Assembly (NCBI GenBank): GCA_039704465.1
Contig: JASFAU010000001.1
Span: 744,001 to 808,000 of the forward strand
DNA length: 64,000 nt
Source of the DNA: Plasmodiophora brassicae
Taxonomy: Eukaryota > Endomyxa > Phytomyxea > Plasmodiophorida > Plasmodiophoridae
Direction of reading: 5' to 3'
Within the stretch, counting starts at the first letter, position 1. Every line of letters starts with the position of its first letter. This document shows, one piece after another, positions 3,069 through 37,723 of the stretch. Position numbers and translations under genes: made by a program. The notes beneath the pieces are model-generated. The model did not search any database and had not been told where the DNA came from. It was given only the letters and a program-made list of their open reading frames with translations.

Positions 3069-6000
3069 ATGGCGTCGCCGCCCCGATACCGTCCGATGGA
3101 CGGGTACAATGCGAACCCGGACCACCCGACCTGGGGAACGACATTGCAACCGCTCGAGTTCGTCTCCGCTCCACAAGCGTACGCGGACAACGTGTCAGGG
3201 CCGGCCGGCCCGAACCGGGACAATGCCCGGTTCATCTCTGACGTCGTGTTCACGGCACCGTTCCAGTTCAACATCAACAGCGGCGTTAGCTCCTTGTTCT
3301 CGAACTATGGCCAATTCCTGGCCAGCGACATGTCCATGCTGGTCTCGTCTAACCACAGCTTCAATATTCAAGTCCCGCGATGCGATATGGGGTTCGGCCT
3401 GGATCCCAACTGCACGGGCACAAAGACAATCCCTTTCACGCGGCATAGTGCATCGAACACCTCCAATGGGTATCTCCAGGGCAAGAACGATGCGACCGCC
3501 TGGCTTGACCTGAGCAACGTCTATGGACTCGGCGACAGCCGTACAGCGTACCTTCGAACGTTTACAAACGGCACGATGAAGACGTCTCAGGGCCCAACTG
3601 GCGAACTGTTGCCCTACAATCTCGACCTGCTGCCGAACCTTGGCCCGAGCAGCACGAACCTGTTCCTGGCCGGGGACCCTCGGTGCAATCTCAACCTGCC
3701 TCTCCTAGCGATCCAAACCCTGTTCGTCTTAGAGCACAACAAACGGGCAGCCACGTTGAAACAGCGGAACCCGACCTGGGACGACGAGACTCTGTTCCAG
3801 GAGGCTCGACGCTACACCATCGCAGTCCATCAGAAGATCACCTACTTCGAGGTATACCCTGCCGCATATCGATCTGCCCTGGCGGTAAACTGACTGTTTA
3901 TGCTGTGAACAGTACCTGCCGAAATTGCTGAGCGCCGGGCTTGACCCATACTCGGGGTTCAAACCGGATGTGTCGCCCGCCATTGATGTTGCCTTCATTA
4001 CGGCTGCCTTCCGATATGGGCACAGTTCGACGAACCAGCTCCTCTACCGGCTGCAGGAATCACGGGTGCCTGTCCCCGGTGGACCGCTGAACCTCGCCGA
4101 CACGATTCTGAACCCGCAGGAGTTCCGGGACAATGGCATGGAGAACGTCCTGCGCGGGCTCATCCTGCAGCCGGAACCCGCCGCCGATGCCAACATGGTG
4201 GACGCCATGCGAACGGTCCGTTCCGTTTTACGGATGTGTTGATCCCAGTGTGGTGACATCCGTGTTCAGGGCACGATCAACGGCGACATGGCCGCCGTTG
4301 ACATTCAGCGGGGTCGGGATCGTGGCGTGCCCGACTACAACACGGTCCGTGTCGCAGTCGGCCTGCCGAGAGCAACCAAGTGGTCCGATATCTCAAGCAT
4401 CCCCGATTATCAGCAGCGCCTGGCCGCCGCGTACCAAAGTGTCGATGATGTGGACCTGTATGTGGGCGGCTTGGCGGAGGACAGGTATCCGTCGGCGATC
4501 ACCAGCCAGACGTTCGCCGGGCTGATCGCAGCACAATTCCTTCGGACGCGAAACGCCGACCCGTTCTTCTACCAGCGACCGGGGCTCTTCTCCACCGACG
4601 AAATGACCGAGATACAGAACCGGACATTGGCGAACATGATCCTCGACCACACTCAGGTATGTGCACCATCCTGTTTCTGTACGACATGGCGCCTTCCTAA
4701 TATATCTGGGCAACAGGTGCAATGGCTGCCGACGGATGTGTTCCAGCTGGAGCAGATCCCGACCGGCAGTTCGACAGCGACCACAACTACGAGGGCGACA
4801 GGATACACCGGGTTGTTCTCGCCCCTGCCAGGCTATTCGGTTAGCTGGGCAATTAGCAGCGACTGCGTCTGGTCGGTCCAGATCGTCAGCACACGGGGTG
4901 GATGGGCGGGCATCGGTTTCGGAACCCAAATGGCGGGTGCCGATATCATCCTGTGCTACATGGACAACGGGGCCATGACCTGTGCTGATTCGTGGGTGCC
5001 CAGCCCATATGAATCGATGCCTCTTCCCGACTACTACTTTGGCCACTCCGATGATATCGCGCCCGGGAGCGTCTCTGGCCAAATCCTGGGCGGGGCTCTG
5101 ACCGCTCGGTTCTCCCGGAAATGCAACACGGGCGACTCGGTCGATCACATCATCACAAACGCAATGGCGCCGATGATCTTTGCCCATGGTCCGACTGCCC
5201 ATCCTGCCCAGCATGGCCTGTTCGGCAGGGCACAGGGCACTATCAACCTGTTCACGAACGAAGCCGTTCTTGACGGGGAGGACGTGTTTCATCTCGGTTC
5301 TGCATCTTCGTCGACCTTCGCAGCCGTCGGGTTCATCCTCTTGGCTCTACAAGGTTCGTATTTCGACCTAGATATTTGTATATTGGGACTAACGACGTGG
5401 CGTCATAGTTATTACGTTGCTATTCGTTCTTGTATTTCGAAAGACACGCCATGTATTCTTCCAGGGCCCGCCATTGCTCATAACAATGCTGCTGGGGTCC
5501 TCGATGCTCAGTACAACGCTCGTGTTAACGACGCTGGAGCAGTCTGCGGCCGTCTGCGCCTGGCGCCTTTTCCTATCCAGCACTGGATTCACGTTGGTCT
5601 TCTCTATCCTCCTCGGGAAGCTTTACCGATACAGCAAGGTCTGCTCGCGCAGTCATACCGAATCAAGCAGTACTGAACCATTGCATTGTACTCGCAGATC
5701 TTTTTCAACAAGTCATCTCTGACGGTGAAAGTGACCAATGTGCACATCCTATCGGCTACATTAGGCATGTTGACGATCGACGTTCTCCTGTGCGGCATAT
5801 GGGTTGGCGTCTCGCCTATGGATGTTGTGCCAGCGGTGCCGAACACGTGCCCGGATTCCTTTACGGCCTCGGTGATCTCCTGGTTGCTTATCGTCGTCAA
5901 GGGCGGCATCCTGCTGACTAGCGCGTGGTTGTACCGGGGGTTGCAAACGCTGGAAGGGCGCACCGCATCCATGTTTAAAGCGGATTTCGACATGGCCGGT

Positions 6001-6521
6001 CAGATTTGCGGCTTCAGCCTCACGTTCCTCGGCGTCATGCTGCTTGTCAGCAAAGTGTCGGCCAGTACTGCCTTCCAGAGGACCATCCTCCTCATCCAGT
6101 GCCTGTCGTCGCTGTTCGTCGCAGGTACGACCCTACGTGTCATCGTTTAACGAGTGTCGGCCACTGACAGGACTATGCCCCAATAGCCGTACCCTACGTT
6201 TGGTATATGGTTGCGAAGGCCTTAACCCTGAAGGACGACGTGAATCGCAAGTCGCGCAGTGTGGCTGAAGTGACTCAGCCGAAGAAGTCACACGCCGCCT
6301 CGCCCGCTGGAAGTGGAACTTTCGTTTTCGACGACAACCCCATCAGCAACGTCAACACGGAGAAACGGCTTCAGATCAAGTACGACGATGCACAGAAGGC
6401 GCTGACCGAGTTCAACCTGTACGCGCAGCTCACCGAGAAGGCCAACGAGAAGTTCTCCAAGCTGAAGGCGGAGATTCTCCAAATGGAAGCGGAAGCAGAA
6501 TTCCGGAACCAGATTGATTGA
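3069..6521 (+). CDS. Peroxidase-DOMON-class C 7TM receptor fusion, copy A (distal His lost)
   Basis: Seven exons join in phase: 3069-3851, 3913-4215, 4270-4656, 4717-5353, 5409-5638, 5698-6124 and 6187-6521, giving 1033 residues. Residues 8-490 are an animal-type heme peroxidase: RPMDGYN start, DLSNVYG, AGDPR with the catalytic Arg205, FRYGHS with the proximal His298, and DIQRGRDRG. Residues 524-650 are a DOMON domain (GWAGIGFGTQMAGADI). From about 686 seven hydrophobic helices follow. TM3 reads CAWRLFLSSTGFTLVFSILL, the class C (GABA-B/7TM_3) pattern, and TM4 ends in IWVGVSP. The tail ends in a heptad segment. The distal position reads QFLASDM, so Ser86 replaces the catalytic His, and the Asp and Glu that ester-link heme in myeloperoxidase are Ala and Leu. 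Peroxidase activity is therefore doubtful. An in-frame stop lies 5 codons upstream of the ATG and no signal peptide is visible. The exon 2/3 junction is the least certain. Confidence 0.85.
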
Positions 6522-7029
6522 GTTCCATTGTGCTTTGTTCAAAGTGGCCATACCTGACTGGTGAAACAGCAACAATAAATCTGTTTGTAAGCTGAGCCAT
6601 GGTTCCCCTGTCAAGTCGAAGCAAATTGGACTTCGGCTTCTCTCCTTGAAATTAGATAGCGCTGTAAAAGCTGTCTCGGAACGTTGTCGAGAGGTCCCAC
6701 TGGATGCCTGTGGCGTCTGGCTATCCGCTGTGATTTGATTACGGTTCTGGTGCGGCTATATAACTTCCATCATCTACCGTCTTTGCCACGCGCTTCACCT
6801 TCTCCTACCCGCTCCTGCATCCAGGTTTATGTTCATGAACCCATGGGGAAGTTGCTTTGGGTGACCTGCCCTTTGCGTTTCTCGAATCCAGAGTCGGCGT
6901 CAGACAGTAAATACCCCTGATGTCCCGTTCATCGTTGGGGTACAGAAGTAAGCGCCACAGACGTAACACAGCCCGGTCTCTATTATTCGTATAGCATATT
7001 GACAGACGTGTCTGGCGCCGACGTCCAAG
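6522..7029. other. Intergenic spacer with poly(A) signal of receptor copy A
   Basis: An AATAAA hexamer at 6574-6579, 53 nt past the stop of copy A, is the likely polyadenylation signal. The rest is of lower GC than the genes and shows no ORF that I can support. Confidence 0.5.
6574..6579 (+). promoter_or_regulatory. Poly(A) signal AATAAA
   Basis: A canonical hexamer 53 nt downstream of the stop codon of receptor copy A, in the expected orientation. Confidence 0.5.
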
Positions 7030-7310
7030 ATGCAGTCAAAGACAAGGTATCGCCTATGGACGGGTACAACGCGAATCCCGGCCGAGCATCCGGTCTGGGA
7101 AACCACCTACACAGCCGCTTGACTTTATCGCGAGTCGGCCACAGGCATACGCAGACGTCAAGGGCTCGACGCCAACTGGGTCCAATCCGAACACCGCTCG
7201 ATACGTCACGCTCACGGGACCGTTCCAGTCCATCACCAACAGCGGTGTGTTATCTCCTTGTTCTCGAACTATTTATTATAGCCAATTCCAAACGCGTCCG
7301 ACATGACAGC
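7030..7310 (+). pseudogene. Decayed third copy of the receptor (start of peroxidase exon 1)
   Basis: The segment reproduces the first 90 or so residues of the peroxidase domain in broken frames. It has RYR and MDGYNANP at 7048-7080 in shifted frames, then RPQAYADV, PTGSNPNTARYVTLTGPFQS and TNSGV in a further frame, and finally ASDM near 7295-7306. Several frameshifts and in-frame stops prevent translation. The ASDM ending (Ser at the distal position) groups it with copy A rather than with copy B. Nothing of exons 2-7 was found here, so it is a 5' fragment left between the two convergent intact genes. Confidence 0.8.
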
Positions 7311-7386
7311 TGGGTTCCGTGTCCAAAACGAGTTTAGTTGTACTGACGATGATGACGTGAAGAATGCGGACGAAATTTGCTCGGTT

Positions 7387-10300
7387 CTACTGGTTCCTGA
7401 AATCCATTTCCGCCTCCATCTGCAGCAACTCGGACTTGAGCTTGTTGAATTTGGCGCTGGACTTCTGCGCCAGCTGGTCGTACATGTTGTACTCGGTGAG
7501 CGCCTTCTGCACCTCGTCCAGCTTGATCCGGAAGTTCTTCGAGACGTCCGACTGGAGGCCCTTCGTGTCCGCCGCATCGCCCGCCGTGGCGCTCTCCGAC
7601 GTGCTATCGCCCAGTTGCACAGATGTGCCGCCGGCTACCTTCGTGTCGCCTTTCGTCTTCTTCGTGCTGGTGTACCCCTTCGCCGCCATGTTCGTGCTCG
7701 CGATCGCCTCCGACACGTGACTCGACTTGCGCGCCTTCCTGTCGTCGAGCAGGAACACCACCTTGACGCACGCGTACCAGACGTACGGCACCACTGCAAC
7801 ATTGGATACGTTGAGCAGCATTCCAGGGAACAAGGCGGGTCCACTGTTCCACACCTGAAACGAACAGCGCGGCAATGCACTGGATGAGAAGGATCGTCCG
7901 CTGGAAGACGGTGCTGGTGGACACTTCGTTGACGAGCAGCAGGATGGCCAGGAAGAGCAGGCTGAGCGCGCTGATCTGCCCAGTCATGTTGATGTCCGAC
8001 TTGAACATCGATGCGGTGCGCCCCTCCAGAGCCTGCAGGTTCCGGTACAGCCATACACTACCGACCAGGATGACGCCCTTGACGATGAGCAGGACCGTGG
8101 AAATCCCCGTTGCCGTTAGGGAATCCGAGCAGGTGTTCGGCGCCTCTGACGCGATCTTCATAGGCGAGACGCCGATCCAGATCCCGCACAGGATCGCGTC
8201 GACCGCCAGGAAGATTAGCGTCCCCGATACAATGTGCACGTTGGTGACTTTCACGGTCAGCGCCGACTTGTTGTAGAAAATCTGCATTGCCGATCAGCAC
8301 TCAGTCGTGGAACGCATTGCAGCATTCAGCCTGGATGGCAACCTTGTTGTACCGGTAGAGCTTGCCTAGTAGGGTAGCGAAGATCAGGGAGAACCCCATG
8401 CTGGACAGGAACAAACGCCAGGCGCAGATCGAGGCAGACTGCTCCACAGTGGTTAGGATCAGGGTGCCGCTGATCATCATGGACCCCAGCAGCATTGTGA
8501 TCAGCAGCGATGGGCCCTGGAAGAACACGGCACGTGTCTTGCGGAAGCCAACAATCGCCAGCAACGTCAGCGCTAGCATCCTGGTCAGCCATGTCGACAT
8601 CGAACGAGAGCGCGGAGCACGAACCTTGCAGGGCGAGGAAGATGAAACCGATGGAAGAGAAGGCCGCCGCCGACGTGGTGCTCAGGTGGAAAACGTCCTC
8701 GTTGCTAAGAGCCGCCTGATTCGTGAACAGGTTGACAGTGCCCAGCGCCCTGCCGAACAGGCCGTGCTGGGCGGGTCGTGGCGTCGGCCCATGCGCAAAG
8801 ATCATCGGCGTCATCGCCCTCGTAATGACGTGGTCGATCGAGTCGCCCGTGCTGCATCGCCGGGAGAACTGAGCGGTCAGGACCCCGCCCAGGATCTGGC
8901 CGGTGACTGTCCCGGGCAGGACATCGTTCGTGTGGCCGATTTCATCGTCAGACGTCGGTGCCGTCTCGAACTGGCCGACCACCATGGAGTCGACGCAGGT
9001 CATGGCGCCGCCGTTCATGTAGCACAGGATGACGTCGCTGCCCGCCATCTGGGTGCCGAATCCGATGCCGGCCCACCCGCCCCGAGTGCTGACGATCTGG
9101 ACCGTCCAGACGCAGTCGCTGGTGATCGCCCAGCTGACCGTGTACCCTGGCAGGGGCGAGAAGATGCCCGTGAACCCAGTCGCCACTGACGTTGACGATG
9201 CCGAACTAGCCGTCGGGATCTGTTCCAGCGCGAACACGTCCGACGGCATCCACTTCACCTGTGCCCGGCAACATGTCAGGCGGTGCGATATGAACCCGTC
9301 GCCGTTCTTCGCCTACCTGGGTGAAGTCAAGGATCATACTCGACAGGGACCGGTTCTGGATCTTGTTCAGTTCGTCGGTGGAGAACAGGCCGGGTCGCAT
9401 GAAGAAGTACGGGTCGGCATCCCTCGTCCGAAGGAACTGGGCCGTGACGAGCGCGTTGAACGTCGGCCCGATGATCCCCGTGCCGACCTTGTCCTCGGAG
9501 AGCCCGCCGACGTACAGGTCCAGGTCGTCGACGCTGTTGTAGGCGATGGCCAGGCGCCGTTGGTACTCGGGATTGCTGGTGACGTCCGACCAGTTGCGGG
9601 CCCTGGGCATCCCGAGCGCTTGCCGCACCGTGTTATAGTCGGGCACGCCGCGATCCCGACCACGCTGGATGTCAACAGCCGCCATATCGCCCAGGATCGG
9701 GTGCTAAGCAGAGGCAGGGACGTTCATGTCTGCGCGCGACAGCACACGCGAGGTGCCAGGGAACGGACCGTCCGCATGCCTTCCACCATGTTGTCGTCGG
9801 CGTCGGCCTCTGGTTCCAGGATAAGCCCTCGCAGGACGTCGTCCATGCCGTTGACGCGGTACTCCTGCGGGTTCAGGATCGTGTCGGCGACGTTGAGCGG
9901 CCCGTCGGCGACCGGGACCCGCGATTCCTGCATGCGGTACACCTGCTGGTTCGTCGAGCTGTGCCCGTACCGGAACGCCGCCGTCATGAAGGCGACGTCG
10001 ATGGCGGGCGACAGGTTCGGGTTGAAGGCCGTGTATGGTTCAAGCCCGTGCGCCAGCAGCTTCGGCAGGTACTGTTCGTCGAGCGGGGCACCCAGTCAGT
10101 CGCGCTCGCAAAACCAAACTGCGGGGCTGCACGCGATAGAGTCCACCTCATAATAGGCGATCTTCTGGTGGATCGCGATGGTGAAGCGCCGCGCCTCCTG
10201 GAACAGGGTCTCGTCGTCCCACGTCGGGTTGCGTTGTTTGAACGTGGTCGCCCACTTGTTGTGCTCCAGGACGAACAGCGTGTGGAGCGCCAGCAGCGGC

Positions 10301-10929
10301 AGGTTGATGTTACAGCGCGGGTCTCCAGCCAGGAACATGTTCGGCGTCATCGGGCCCGCGTTGTCGAACAGCGGGAGGTTGAACGGCAGCAGCTCGCCGC
10401 GTGGGCCCTGTGATGTCTTCATCTTCCCGTCACTGAACGTTCGAAGGTACGACGTGCGGTTGTCGCCGAGGCCATAGACCAGGTTCAGGTCAAGCCACGA
10501 CGTCGCAAGGTTCTGTCCCTGGAAGTACCCGCGGGATGTAACTGATCCGCCCTCGCGCGTGAACGGGATCGTGGCTGTGCCCGTGCAGTTGGGGTCGAAC
10601 CCGTATCCCATATCACACCGTGGAACGGGAATGTGGAACGTCACGTTGGACGATGCTTGCAGGATCATGTCGTGCGCCAGGAACTGGCCGTAATACGGGA
10701 ACCAGCCGCTTGCGCCGCTGATGACGTTGAATTTGAACTGCGATGTGAACAGGACGTCCGAAATGTATCGGGCGCTGTTCCGGTGTGGGCCGGCCGTAGA
10801 CGACACATTGTCGGCATATGCCTCCGGTGTCGAGATGTACTCGAGCGGTTGCCGCAGCGTCCCCCATGTCGGATGATCTGGGTTGACGTTGTACCCGTCC
10901 ATCGGACGGTACCTCGGCAACGATGACAT
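7387..10929 (-). CDS. Peroxidase-DOMON-class C 7TM receptor fusion, copy B (distal His kept)
   Basis: Seven exons on the minus strand: 10929-10147, 10071-9769, 9703-9317, 9258-8625, 8572-8343, 8281-7855 and 7793-7387, giving 1056 residues. Exons 1, 2, 3, 5 and 6 have exactly the same lengths as in copy A, and all intron phases agree, which supports both models. The peroxidase domain keeps the distal His86 (QFLAHDM), the catalytic Arg in AGDPR and the proximal His298 in FRYGHS. It lacks the Asp and Glu that ester-link heme in mammalian peroxidases, so any heme would be held non-covalently. A DOMON domain, seven class C helices (TM3 CAWRLFLSSMGFSLIFATLL, TM4 ending IWIGVSP) and a longer Ser/Thr/Lys-rich tail ending in heptads follow. 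It lies tail-to-tail with copy A. No signal peptide is visible and an in-frame stop lies 6 codons upstream of the ATG. Confidence 0.87.
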
Positions 10930-12182
10930 CGTGGGTGGCCGTCGTCAAGGATATGACGCAGCAGGCGCTAACTCGACTCCAGGAAGACCTTGGGTTATGA
11001 CTGCTTGCCCGGGTCAGTCCGAGGTTCGGTATACTAGGCGGTAGACATGTCATTCTGTGACGGCGGGGCATGCTGGCTTGCTGGCATAGTGCTATAGTAG
11101 CAAATGTAGCCCGCGTTGTGTAGGATACCCCCTCAAGAGGGTGTCCTACACAGTAGCACTCAGTGAGCCTAAGCTGCTGTGCAGTGAGGTGGATCGGACG
11201 CTTCAGGTACTTCGACCCGCCATGGCAGAGCGCTGTATTTGCCGGGCGCAAAGTTTAAGCGCCATTAGCGCTATAAATCGGTTCTCTGCATTACCGGGCA
11301 GGCTGGCGGTTGTGACCAGACAGTTAATCAATGGACAGAACTTGTCGACGGCCACAGCTCTCGCGATGGAAGTATGATCAGGTTGATCCACTGGCAGGTC
11401 GCCAATTTGACGAGGACGTCGCCTTCCGGTTGTATCTAGCCCGGGTTCCAGAACGTAAAGTGTACGAGTGGCCATCGGGCATTCGGTCACGACCTTTCTG
11501 TACAATATGACGATCTGGTTGATGTCGATCTTGACGGTCTGCATTTGACCCGGGATACCGCGAGCAGTATAATCAGCACGATCGCGGTCGACGCGACGTG
11601 CTGACGGGGCATGCCGATCTTCGGACGGCACGTGGCATGACGAAATACTGCCACTCAAGCTTGTGTACGGCGACAGGTTCCACCACAACGGGACGAGTTA
11701 CTGGATGAGTTTCACTCCATGCAGTCATAGACTCATAGGCGAGTCAGCGGTACGGAATCAGTGTACAGAGTCGCTAAGCAAACATGAGCTGCTTTTGAGG
11801 TGGTGTTCATATGTGCACGCGTACGATACCGTTGACACCTTGTCTCGAATAAGTGCCCTGTAGCCGCAGCATCGGCGGGGCACATTGCGCACCGTCACGC
11901 TCAGGCCACTACTGTGCACGGCGAACGTATCCACCTCGCAATGCTTCCACGTACTGCCTGTTTCTATAAGGATGCAAGTCGGTATAGAAGTACATAGCGG
12001 GATCCAACGGCGGAGATATTGTGCTGCGCCAGTCGCGTGCCCCGATTCGATCGCATCGCGGTACATTCATTGGGGCGTCGTGAATCGCGCGCGGCCTGAA
12101 CGTCGTGGTTCGGATAGGCTCCCCCGTTCAGTGCGCCCAGCCACCTGTTGATCCCGGTCGTTCATGGCGATTTGATCGCTCG
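10930..12182. other. 1.25 kb intergenic region, no supported gene
   Basis: This region separates the divergent starts of receptor copy B and eIF4G and presumably holds both promoters. Apart from a strong hairpin at 11117-11152, nothing is recognised. The longest ORF (minus, 11203-11688) has no family resemblance and was not called. Confidence 0.4.
11117..11152. repeat. Near-perfect hairpin (inverted repeat)
   Basis: The left arm 11117-11134 and right arm 11137-11152 pair almost completely (TGTGTAGGA... against ...TCCTACACA) around a 2-nt AA centre, with one mismatch and a small size difference. It lies in the region between receptor copy B and eIF4G. It could be a regulatory cruciform, the stem of an RNA, or a remnant of a small inverted-repeat element. 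Confidence 0.6.
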
Positions 12183-33998: not shown

Positions 33999-34092
33999 GC
34001 CATCATCCCATTGTACAACTAAAGGCCCTTTCGGAGTGACCCCTGGCGGGCTGAATGGATGAATGTATTGGTTGTCTACAGGCAGCATACGT

Positions 34093-35220
34093 TTAGAAGC
34101 ACTTGCGGTGGACGATGGACGGGCCGGCCTCGTCGTACTCCTCCTTGGAGACCCACATCTGCTGGAAGGTCGACAGCGACGACAGGATCGACCCGCCGAT
34201 CCAGACCGAGTACTTGCGCTCGGGCGGGGCCACAACCTTGACGCGCATCGACGACGGCGCCAGGGCGGCCACCTCCTTCTGCAGGCGCGTCGCCAGGCCG
34301 TCGTACATGGTGCTGCCGCCGGACATGACGATGTTCTCGTACAGGTCCTTGCGGATGTCGACGTCGCACTTCATGATCGACTGGTACGCCAGCTGGTGGA
34401 TGCCCTCGGACTCGTTGCCGATCATGGACGGCTGGAAGAGGACCTCCGGGGCGCGGAACCGCTCGTTGCCGACCGTGATGACCTGGCCGTCGGGCAGCTC
34501 GTAGGCGCGCTCGACCTCGGACGACTGCTCCGAGTTGGACATCTCGGTGTCGAAGTCCTGCGCCACGTACGCCAGCTTCTCCTTGATGTCGCGGACGATC
34601 TCCCGCTCGGCCGTCGTCGTGAACGCGTACCCGCGCTCGGTCAGGATCTTCATCAGGTAGTCGGTGATGTCCCGGCCGGCAATGTCCAGGCGCTGGATGG
34701 CGTGCGGCAGGGCGTACCCTTCGTAGATGGGGACCGTGTGCGACACGCCGTCGCCCGCGTCCAGGACGATACCCGTCGTGCGGCCGGACGCGTACAGCGA
34801 CAGGACGGCCTGGATGGCGACGTACATGGCCGGCGTGTTGAACGTCTCGAACATGATCTGCGTCATCTTCTCGCGGTTGGCCTTCGGGTTCAGCGGCGCC
34901 TCCGTCAGCATGACCGGGTGCTCCTCGGGGGCCACGCGCAGCTCGTTGTAGAACGTGTGGTGCCAGATCTTCTCCATGTCGTCCCAGTTCGTCACGATGC
35001 CGTGCTCGATCGGGTACTTGAGCGTCAGGATGCCACGCTTGGCCTGCGCCTCATCGCCGACGTACGCGTCCTTCTGCGTGGCACCCACCATGATGCCGAC
35101 GTGGCGCGGGCGACCCACGATCGACGGGAACACGGCACGCGGGGCGTCGTCGCCCGCGAACCCGGCCTTGACCATGCCGGAGCCATTGTCGACAACCAGG
35201 GCCTGGACTTCGTCGGACAT
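34093..35220 (-). CDS. ACT: Actin (left copy)
   Basis: An intronless 375-residue actin with no gaps relative to canonical actins: the N-terminal phosphate loop [19 protein letters not shown], the hydrophobic plug region, [17 protein letters not shown], and the C-terminal IVHRKCF. All nucleotide-binding segments are intact. The encoded protein is the same as that of the right copy at 44189-45316, and the few DNA differences I found are all silent. The gene lies in the left arm of the inverted duplication, transcribed away from the central ARPC1/IFT46 block. A CArG-like element lies about 140 bp upstream. Confidence 0.98.
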
Positions 35221-35359
35221 GTTGATGATGGGAGAGGGGTTGGCTTTGACGAACTTGGCTGCGAAGGCTGGCGGCGCGTTTGCGGAATGCAGATCGTGCT
35301 GCCCTGAGGGGACGGGTAAACCTCGGCCGGCCGAGTCGCTCCACCCTCTGCGTTGTGTC

Positions 35360-35369
35360 CCGATTTAGG
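35360..35369 (-). promoter_or_regulatory. CArG-like box upstream of left actin
   Basis: CCTAAATCGG on the minus strand, 140 bp upstream of the actin ATG. It differs from the SRF/MADS consensus CC(A/T)6GG at one position. The same element occurs at the same place in the right arm. Confidence 0.4.
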
Positions 35370-36009
35370 TCGGCATTGCTTCATGCTCAGATTTAGCTCA
35401 TCGTGCAGCGCGCGTTTCCAAGAATAGGACAACGACATCTGATGCGCGCATCACCAGCCCAAGAAGGTGGTGTCCGGCGTAGGCACACCGTGGATGCGGC
35501 TGTAGAGTGTAGACCCAAACCGAAGCAAAGCACTTCATGCTGCTGTTGAAGGCGGACAACGGGTTCGCACGTCTGTCAGATGCCTTTGATGTCGACAGCT
35601 GGTATCCAGATCGGAATTGTTCAGTCGTCGGAATCGTCGCGTGCAGTCTGATGACGACGTTTGCGAAGCGGACGGCGACGAAGTGCTCTTCAAGGCTTCT
35701 GTCCTTCGACACCGGACGCATCTGGCGATAATACCAAGCTCGTGACGAGCACGAAGACATACCTGTCAACAATCATGGCCGGCTGTCGTTGGTCGCCTGC
35801 GTCGGCTATCAGGACTTCCACCTCACGGGTGCTCCCTAACGATGCACGGCCCATTTCGTGGGAATGGATGACAATGTAACCCTGATGTTGTATCTGACCC
35901 CGCCGAACTGTCTTCCCAAGAAGCAACGACTGCAGCAACCCCAGCGTGATAGTCGCAGCAATACACGCGTGCTTGTCAGGGCATGGTCGACGGCTGCCTG
36001 GCGAGTTCG

Positions 36010-36047
36010 TGGCGCCCACGCAGGGTAATGGCGCCCACGCAGGGTAA
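36010..36047 (+). repeat. 19 bp tandem duplication in the left arm
   Basis: TGGCGCCCACGCAGGGTAA occurs twice in direct succession (36010-36028 and 36029-36047). The right arm has one diverged copy, so this duplication arose after the arms separated. Confidence 0.8.
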
Positions 36048-36238
36048 CAGACTGTCAGTACTGAGCTCCAGAGCGCATCACAACGATTACGTGATGTGTG
36101 TCTGAAAGGACAAAAAGTGGTTACATCACCATACGGTTCCCCGGTGGTCCCCCTCCCGAGTACTGGACAGGCCAAACACCATTTGGCTTCGCAATTCGGA
36201 ATGAGATACGGCACATTCGGTGTTGTATGAACGTAACC

Positions 36239-37723
36239 GTCGGTTAGTCGTCATTGCGGCAGTTCGAATCACTCTATACAAGACGAAGTCGATTGTCCGG
36301 GCAGTGGTCTGAGTTTGAATCACGTAACCGGAGGGACCGTCGGGGGATTTCCGACCTGCGCCCTATCTTCATCGGCTCTCCGGGTGAGCCGAAGCGCTCC
36401 GTTTGGTCGCTATCTAGGGGTAGTGTGTTGATGGCAAATATTTGGCCGGATCTATCGACGACTGGACATTGGCCGTAATCCCCGTATCGCTGACAGCTCT
36501 ACAAGTCTGGGTTATCAGTGTTGCCGAGAACCAACAGGCGACGTCACCGGTCGACGTCGTCGGCAAACTTGCCCTGTTGCATGGTTGCCTGTTGCTGGCC
36601 ATTTGTAGGGTGGCTGGGTGGGTGGTACGACTCCTGGAAGGCGATGCAGCCAAGCATGGGGACGGATTCCGTGCGCGCGTCCACCTACAGAGATATCATC
36701 GTCTATACCGCCTCGAAACGCAGTGATCGGATCGCAGCACCCAATTCCTGCGAACACGTCGGCATGTCCTGGTCGTCGTTGTCCAGCTGGCTGTGGATCC
36801 AGGTCCTGTGCCAACTGGCGCCATGTTCCGGCGTTCCCAGAGTCCGGTTTCCGACCGCGTCCTTCAGGATGCCTCCATCTGCCGTCCGGATCGACCCAGG
36901 GGCACTGGTGCCATGTTCTTGTTGGGAGGCGTGCACCACCACCACCAACCGCAGGCTCGTCGCCGCCATCATCATCATCGTCCTCAGCATCCCAGCGTCC
37001 CCACATCGATGGTCCTGGTCCCCGCCCTAACGAGCCTGGCCACCGGGGCAATCGTATATCGCGGAGACTCCATTTGTTCAGGATGTTCAGATTTGTCGTG
37101 AACGTTGGACCCGCAGGACGTCGTGTACTAACACGTCCAGGCACAGCGCGTATCGTGACCGCCGGGTTTGCGCTCAGCGATGATTGTGCAGGGCATTCAC
37201 TGGTCTCCAAGCCTCGTGGTGTTTCCAGTAGGTATACCGTACCCTGACACGTCCAGGTACAATGGACACGTTAACGGAAGCTGCATTTAATGCGGTCGGT
37301 CGTGTCCAGGTACCACCGGAGGAGCAACGTCGTCCAAACGGGTATGATCCGCCTCCACGATACTCGTCGAGTATGCGTTCGTTTCATGGGAGCAGCGGCT
37401 CTGAGGCCCCGGTCCCTCTTCGAGTAGGAGTTCCCGATCTGGACTCCCTTCAAGTCGGCCTGTGCTTGTCCCTCCAAGTCCGCCTCTGGATTCCTTCCGT
37501 AGAACCTGTTTGTCCCCGGTCAACGAGTTGCTTACGGCTCCGTCCCTCACCATGGTTTCGCCTTCGCGCCATAGTCGCATGCGACTGCACTTCGCTGCGC
37601 CTTCGGCTACGTGAAGCACGACTGGTCGTTTATGCGAATGGGTGTACTGATCCCACGATGAATCACGATGGGGTTCGCAGCGTATACAACTGTTGGATAT
37701 ATCATTGGGCAGAGGACTGGCTG
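36239..37723. other. Intergenic region inside the inverted duplication
   Basis: It contains one weak candidate: a minus-strand ORF 36990-36703 starting MLRTMMMMAATSLRLVVVVH, which resembles a signal peptide followed by about 70 residues. A short motif, CACGTCCAGG, recurs at about 37132, 37254 and (as GTGTCCAGG) 37303. I see no other gene. Confidence 0.35.

Follow-up and report, generated by a model that had tools for sequence, protein, structure and literature searches.

Two convergent genes of Plasmodiophora brassicae that join a heme-peroxidase and DOMON module to a class C receptor core

Class C G-protein-coupled receptors (GPCRs) are usually thought of as ligand-binding flytraps mounted on a seven-transmembrane (7TM) core. 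Here we describe two genes, A and B, from a 64,000-nucleotide stretch of Plasmodiophora brassicae DNA (assembly GCA_039704465.1, contig JASFAU010000001.1, positions 744,001 to 808,000 of the forward strand; the window in what follows), whose predicted products place an animal-type heme-peroxidase domain (An_peroxidase) and a DOMON domain in front of such a core. Early-branching fungi have expanded families of class C receptors with varied ectodomains (PMC3251606, PMC5168858; for abundance see also PMC12842992), and these glutamate-type receptors resemble A and B in combining a class C 7TM core with an unusual ectodomain; theirs, however, are periplasmic-binding, pectin-lyase-like or of other kinds, whereas that of A and B is a heme-peroxidase fold followed by DOMON. 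With the peroxidase-cyclooxygenase superfamily, including peroxinectin and dual oxidase (PMC4420034), A and B share An_peroxidase, the proximal His and the catalytic Arg, but the Asp and Glu that form heme esters in that superfamily are lost in both genes and the distal His is lost in A. The peroxidase domain of dual oxidase is likewise strongly mutated (PMC4420034); unlike dual oxidase, A and B carry no NADPH oxidase part after the peroxidase, since neither gave such a Pfam match at E up to 1. In CYBDOM proteins, which join DOMON to b561 (PMC10784552), and in the database proteins P0030, P0007, P0008 and P0128, a DOMON Met/His pair directly precedes the membrane domain, as it does in A and B, although the membrane part of A and B differs from that of CYBDOM in being a class C 7TM core.

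A sequence-only reading of the window, which this analysis follows up, knew of no description of such a fusion. That stands for the literature, in which a search mostly outside subscription journals found, among the results listed, no title or abstract describing a peroxidase-DOMON-class C fusion; the words peroxidase and DOMON are also absent from the main texts, as far as available and supplements apart, of PMC3251606, PMC5168858, PMC12842992 and PMC12716839. It does not stand for the protein databases, which hold eight further examples (P0063 and P0121-P0127) in which these domains follow one another in identical order.

Each gene is interrupted by six GT..AG introns of 52-75 nt, at positions that match between A and B, and each yields one open frame. 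The two are convergent, their ends at 6521 and 7387 facing each other, and are 68% identical in amino acid sequence (1030 aligned codons), with a DNA identity of 73% across 3.1 kb. A broken third copy between them is a sign of an older array. Their features, in window positions, are as follows.

3069-6521, + strand: gene A, 7 exons, 1033 amino acids, peroxidase-DOMON-7TM (class C)-tail (splice model and Pfam)
3069-3851, 3913-4215, 4270-4656, 4717-5353, 5409-5638, 5698-6124, 6187-6521, + strand: exons of A
3087..4743, + strand: An_peroxidase domain of A, residues 7-500, introns included (Pfam, 413 bits)
3324..3326, + strand: Ser86 of A, at the position of the distal catalytic His (alignment)
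4021..4023, + strand: proximal heme His298 of A (alignment)
4834..5187, + strand: DOMON of A, residues 531-648 (Pfam, 58.5 bits)
4930-4932 and 5212-5214, + strand: predicted axial heme ligands of the A DOMON, Met563 and His657, the latter just beyond the Pfam match (alignment)
5302..6218, + strand: class C 7TM core of A, residues 687-933, introns included, with Cys753, Lys774, Arg777 and Cys831
6219..6518, + strand: predicted cytosolic tail of A, weakly heptad-like
7053-7272, + strand: third-copy remnant, matching the beginning of A exon 1 at 69% identity and interrupted by indels (blastn)
10929-7387, - strand: gene B, 7 exons, 1056 amino acids, architecture as A, inverted convergent paralogue (splice model and Pfam)
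10929-10147, 10071-9769, 9703-9317, 9258-8625, 8572-8343, 8281-7855, 7793-7387, - strand: exons of B
10672..10674, - strand: distal His86 of B, retained within GQFLAHD (alignment)
8791..9144, - strand: DOMON of B, residues 530-647 (Pfam and fold model)
9048-9046 and 8766-8764, - strand: predicted heme ligands of the B DOMON, Met562 and His656, the latter just beyond the Pfam match
7387..8682, - strand: class C 7TM core of B, from residue 684, introns included, and tail (Pfam and alignment)
11536..11612, - strand: candidate signal-peptide exon of B, with hydrophobic start, in-frame donor GTCAAG and a 623-nt intron

All three domains exceed the Pfam gathering cut-offs in both genes: An_peroxidase scores 413 bits in A and 407 in B, DOMON 58.5 and 48.8 (cut-off 32.7), and 7tm_3 70.5 (profile positions 6-251) and 68.5 (4-247), the profile being 251 positions long and its cut-off 33.5. 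This agrees with the sequence-only reading, and the motifs on which it had drawn (VYG, AGDPR, FRYGHS and RGRD) are present in both proteins, with GFTL in A and GFSL in B. That A and B are each a single fused protein is, as far as sequence can tell, confirmed. Chance or a chimera is disfavoured because the exons are co-linear, the differences between A and B follow codon position (244, 160 and 410 at positions 1, 2 and 3), the three domains are under like constraint (ratios of nonsynonymous to synonymous change, dN/dS, of 0.22 for the peroxidase, 0.25 for DOMON and 0.24 for the 7TM part, with 0.45 for the tail), and the introns have diverged until their similarity is just 3-6 points above that of shuffled introns. 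Separate genes for the three parts were also considered, and are unlikely in view of frame, introns, constraint and the database proteins of identical domain order.

The membrane part of both proteins is predicted to be class C and not b561. Hydropathy plots have seven stretches from residue 683 onward in A and B alike. Present in both are Cys753, Lys774 and Arg777, each found in 25 of 25 other class C rows, and Cys831, found in 26 of 26, and 13 of the 21 well-conserved class C columns are kept in A or B. The Cys in transmembrane helix (TM) 3 and that following TM4, noticed in the earlier reading, are Cys753 and Cys831, which probably form a disulfide from TM3 to the second extracellular loop. 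A better fit to b561, the alternative against which the class C assignment was tested, was ruled out by the fit to the class C profile and because neither A nor B matched PF03188 even with E values as high as 1 allowed; the genome search for b561 gave three matches, all at other loci. In the 7TM tree the eight other receptors form a group with support of 99/95.

A search of the whole assembly (25.3 Mb, 21 contigs) for An_peroxidase returned four exon matches, every one in A or B. Among peroxidases of solved structure, the best sequence match is a cyanobacterial enzyme listed as lactoperoxidase (8s6c), followed by peroxinectin A of Dictyostelium (6erc). Heme-pocket residues were compared in an alignment of 40 domains, made up of 10 receptors, 6 other peroxidase-DOMON proteins and 24 chosen rows without DOMON (23 picked among the 120 listed of 224 matches, and one from the search with P0063). 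The proximal His is present in all ten receptors (His298 in A and B), and the catalytic Arg in all eight that cover it (Arg205 in A and B). At the distal motif G-Q-x-x-D-H-D, described along with the roles of the pocket residues in PMC4420034, A reads GQFLASD, its His lost to Ser, while B reads GQFLAHD; B retains the distal Gln, His and Arg but lacks the first Asp of the motif. Of the eight receptors covering the position, seven have lost the distal His and B alone keeps it; besides the Ser of A, the replacements are Thr (P0063, P0121), Met (P0122, P0125), Val (P0123) and Ile (P0124). All 24 rows without DOMON keep this His, as do P0008 and P0030, and P0128 has lost it; P0005 and P0007, which do not cover the position, and P0017, which has a garbled start, are set aside in this count. 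A Fisher test on 7/8 versus 0/24 gives 2e-6, treating kin as independent. Both heme-ester residues are lost in the eight receptors that cover them. Because the catalytic distal His is lost, as in six relatives, A is best read as a putative pseudo-peroxidase, that is, a non-catalytic sensor subunit, which could not turn over peroxide in the usual way; the peroxidase of B is possibly active.

In the DOMON domain of cellobiose dehydrogenase a Met and a His bind heme b, and both are conserved in CYBDOM proteins (PMC10784552). The Met is found in 15 of 16 aligned peroxidase-DOMON proteins, lying one place off in P0128, and the His in all 16; both are retained in 10 of 10 receptors. In A and B the pair was assigned by alignment with the other peroxidase-DOMON rows, without superposition on a solved heme domain. 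A structure model of the DOMON exon of B (mean predicted local distance difference test, pLDDT, of 81, with most of the core in blocks of 93-97) gave nine fold matches at E < 0.001, to dopamine beta-hydroxylase and to cytochrome domains from cellobiose dehydrogenase and pyranose dehydrogenase. A sequence search of solved structures with the same domain gave no sensible match, and an eight-row DOMON profile gave one, dopamine beta-hydroxylase, at E 1e-4. As a separate observation, locus L017 (649-3342, + strand) holds a frame with three consecutive DOMON matches, proline-rich linkers and then a hydrophobic stretch.

Fifteen proteins were recovered in a protein search with P0063, of which eight, P0063 included, have all three Pfam domains. 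The automatic name of P0123 spells out the three domains, and P0124 is listed from EukProt, set MMETSP0173, presumably a product of the MMETSP transcriptome project. Six long relatives of this architecture differ from A and B in having some 300-400 extra residues before the peroxidase. A search with residues 500-960 of A returned nothing at E 0.001 among 7993 proteins scored, a result of little weight as it missed P0063 too. Judged by domain content, the peroxidase-DOMON pair is a portable module: it stands before the class C 7TM core, before b561 in P0030 (slightly above cut-off), before b561, cytochrome b5 and FAD-binding parts in P0007, before cytochrome b5 and FAD/NAD-binding reductase parts in P0008 (Borealophlyctis nickersoniae) and P0128 (Blastocladiella emersonii), and before the start of a kinase in the fragment P0017, where one hydrophobic stretch follows DOMON and the sequence ends halfway through a protein kinase domain. 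The b561-like helices of P0008 and P0128 were judged by eye only, and the domain assignments of P0128 are the precomputed database ones. The predicted layout of P0007, P0008 and P0128 is DUOX-like and of separate make.

In the peroxidase tree A and B group with P0005 and P0007 (support 100/99) and then with P0008 (96/95), apart from the other receptors; the peroxidase domains of P0063 and P0121-P0127 lie on another branch, and their joining to the receptor core is judged independent. These results come from a 39-row tree that leaves out P0128 for its long branch; a 40-row tree including it splits in the same way, and there P0127, represented by just the C-terminal half of its peroxidase domain, does not join the other receptors. 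Placing all ten receptor peroxidase domains (10 of the 39 rows) in one clade was rejected by the approximately unbiased (AU) test (p 8.7e-5; 3.0e-5 with P0005 added to the clade), so that the peroxidase-DOMON module is likely to have joined a class C 7TM core at least twice, independently. One branch separates the 15 peroxidase-DOMON proteins from the 24 others, with support of 75/93 that is not firm. A likely history is that one peroxidase-DOMON pair arose on an electron carrier and was later moved to signalling parts.

We lean, with slightly more belief than doubt, towards reading A and B as heme-based sensors derived from an enzyme, each with two putative hemes, set on a G-protein receptor through which they would signal in response to a presumed ligand. 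The peroxidase-DOMON module would lie outside the cell and hold the two hemes; the trigger would act on this module, whether peroxide, some organic radical or reductant, or a small heme ligand; DOMON, which adjoins TM1, would relay the change to the 7TM core, and the core would signal via one of the organism's many G-alpha proteins. A and B may also pair in the manner of the two GABA-B subunits, with one partner that senses and one that reacts, because B keeps the distal Gln, His and Arg while A has lost the distal His; the Asp of A as against the Asn of B near TM6 invites the idea of such a division of labour but does not show it. The earlier proposal of an ectodomain that senses redox state or peroxide gains from module swapping and from the retained DOMON Met and His, whereas its peroxide version loses from the absence of the distal His in A and in all six relatives that cover it. 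More tentatively, and with doubt outweighing belief, one may imagine a family of heme-holding GPCRs in which a two-heme module born on electron carriers joined class C 7TM cores at least twice and a kinase as well, becoming a sensor through loss of the distal His; A and B would here form a heterodimer, one subunit catalytic and the other pseudo-enzymatic, with enzyme turnover or the heme redox state itself as the signal.

If the sensor reading is right, redox chemistry would be read directly by a G-protein receptor, and a heme-enzyme fold would have taken the place of the flytrap more than once. A and B would provide a specific candidate for how early-branching fungi and other microbes sense peroxide or redox state, and would exemplify in nature the change of an enzyme into a receptor domain. 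As one module stands before b561, kinase and GPCR parts, the hypothesis is testable across outputs.

Several results weigh against the sensor reading or weaken its parts. The model of A has no signal peptide, its ATG follows an in-frame stop by 15 nt, and no acceptor AG occurs either between that stop and the ATG or within the opening 87 nt of exon 1; the model of B has no signal peptide either. These gaps weaken the predicted outside position of the 680-residue ectodomain, for which B offers just a candidate exon. On the tree, two losses of the distal His on the receptor side suffice, one in A after the A/B split and one in the P0063 group. Both A and B, like P0005 and P0007, have Asp in place of the Asn that usually partners the proximal His, and in A and B the heme-ester residues are gone (Ala for Asp, Leu or Ile for Glu). 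Eight of the 21 conserved class C columns are kept in neither protein, A has Asp near TM6 where 22 of 22 other rows have Asn, which B keeps, and the 7TM tree does not settle where within class C A and B belong, their branch being 2.64. The structure model of P0126 is of low overall confidence (pLDDT 65.9, predicted template modelling score, pTM, 0.40). The tail, which had been called heptad-rich, proved only weakly so, its best register by a simple a/d count being 0.40 in A and 0.50 in B. As to the N-terminus of B, removal of the 623-nt intron, which uses one of four in-frame donors, would connect the hydrophobic start at 11612 to the rest of the frame; ATG starts with a hydropathy peak > 3.0 number 8 in 128 kb of strand, an expectation of 0.09 per 1.5 kb. 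A hydrophobic start is present in five of the nine relatives checked (P0121-P0123, P0008 and P0030), and none was found within the first 45 residues of P0063, P0124, P0125 and P0128. The positive charge after TM1 (RKTR) would fit an N-terminus outside.

Other explanations of the same genes have to be considered beside the sensor. The proteins might be membrane-tethered enzymes, in which the peroxidase, at least that of B, acts on substrates in the cell wall or the surroundings, DOMON serves as electron carrier and the 7TM part is mainly an anchor. We consider this rather unlikely: B does have the distal Gln, His and Arg and the proximal His, and the closest neighbours in the peroxidase tree are P0007 and P0008, with their electron-transfer parts, and the fragment P0005, but an anchor sits poorly with a 7TM constraint about equal to that of the enzyme part (0.24 versus 0.22) and with the retained class C residues, and catalysis with the missing distal His of A and six relatives. 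Of similarly low probability is an adhesion or binding receptor, its peroxidase fold a binding surface as in peroxinectins and its heme structural or absent. Peroxinectin A (6erc) is indeed the second-best solved match, the distal pocket is altered in most receptors, and the genome's other class C receptors carry PBP, ANF, laminin-G and kelch domains; the proximal His and the DOMON Met and His, each present in 10 of 10 receptors, point instead to retained hemes. As for the idea that A and B are chimeras produced by gene annotation or degenerating members of a tandem array, the broken third copy and the gene models without signal peptide might suggest it, but we regard it as very improbable given the uninterrupted frames, a dN/dS of about 0.25, the terminal branches of the two genes, nearly equal in the peroxidase tree (0.19 for A and 0.20 for B, as against 0.14 and 0.37 in the 7TM tree), and the eight database proteins of identical architecture.

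Class C receptors are numerous in the assembly, with 70 exon-wise 7tm_3 matches in 47 clusters, A and B included. There are 82 G-alpha matches, the 38 strongest of which fall in 23 clusters. Of the 45 class C loci besides A and B, 19 had their reading frames scanned for ectodomains (L031 left out): 12 have a further domain over cut-off, namely ANF (3), PBP or other solute-binding (4), laminin-G with ephrin-receptor-like (3), kelch (1) and chitobiase C-terminal (1), and the remaining 7 have none over cut-off, which means little because exons were scanned singly. The kelch ectodomain belongs to a class C receptor at L039 (1252-3153, - strand). Type 1 chitin synthase gave 17 genome matches in 9 clusters, and type 2 matches were weak, the best scoring 74 bits. 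A rhodopsin search gave no match, and none in the controls either. Together with the fungal relatives, these gene families would by themselves suggest an early-branching fungus. Elsewhere in the window, an inverted repeat (34050-36241 and 45359-43184; 93.5% identity over 2.2 kb) holds two actin genes; its two arms, like A and B, lie in opposite orientations with several kilobases between them.

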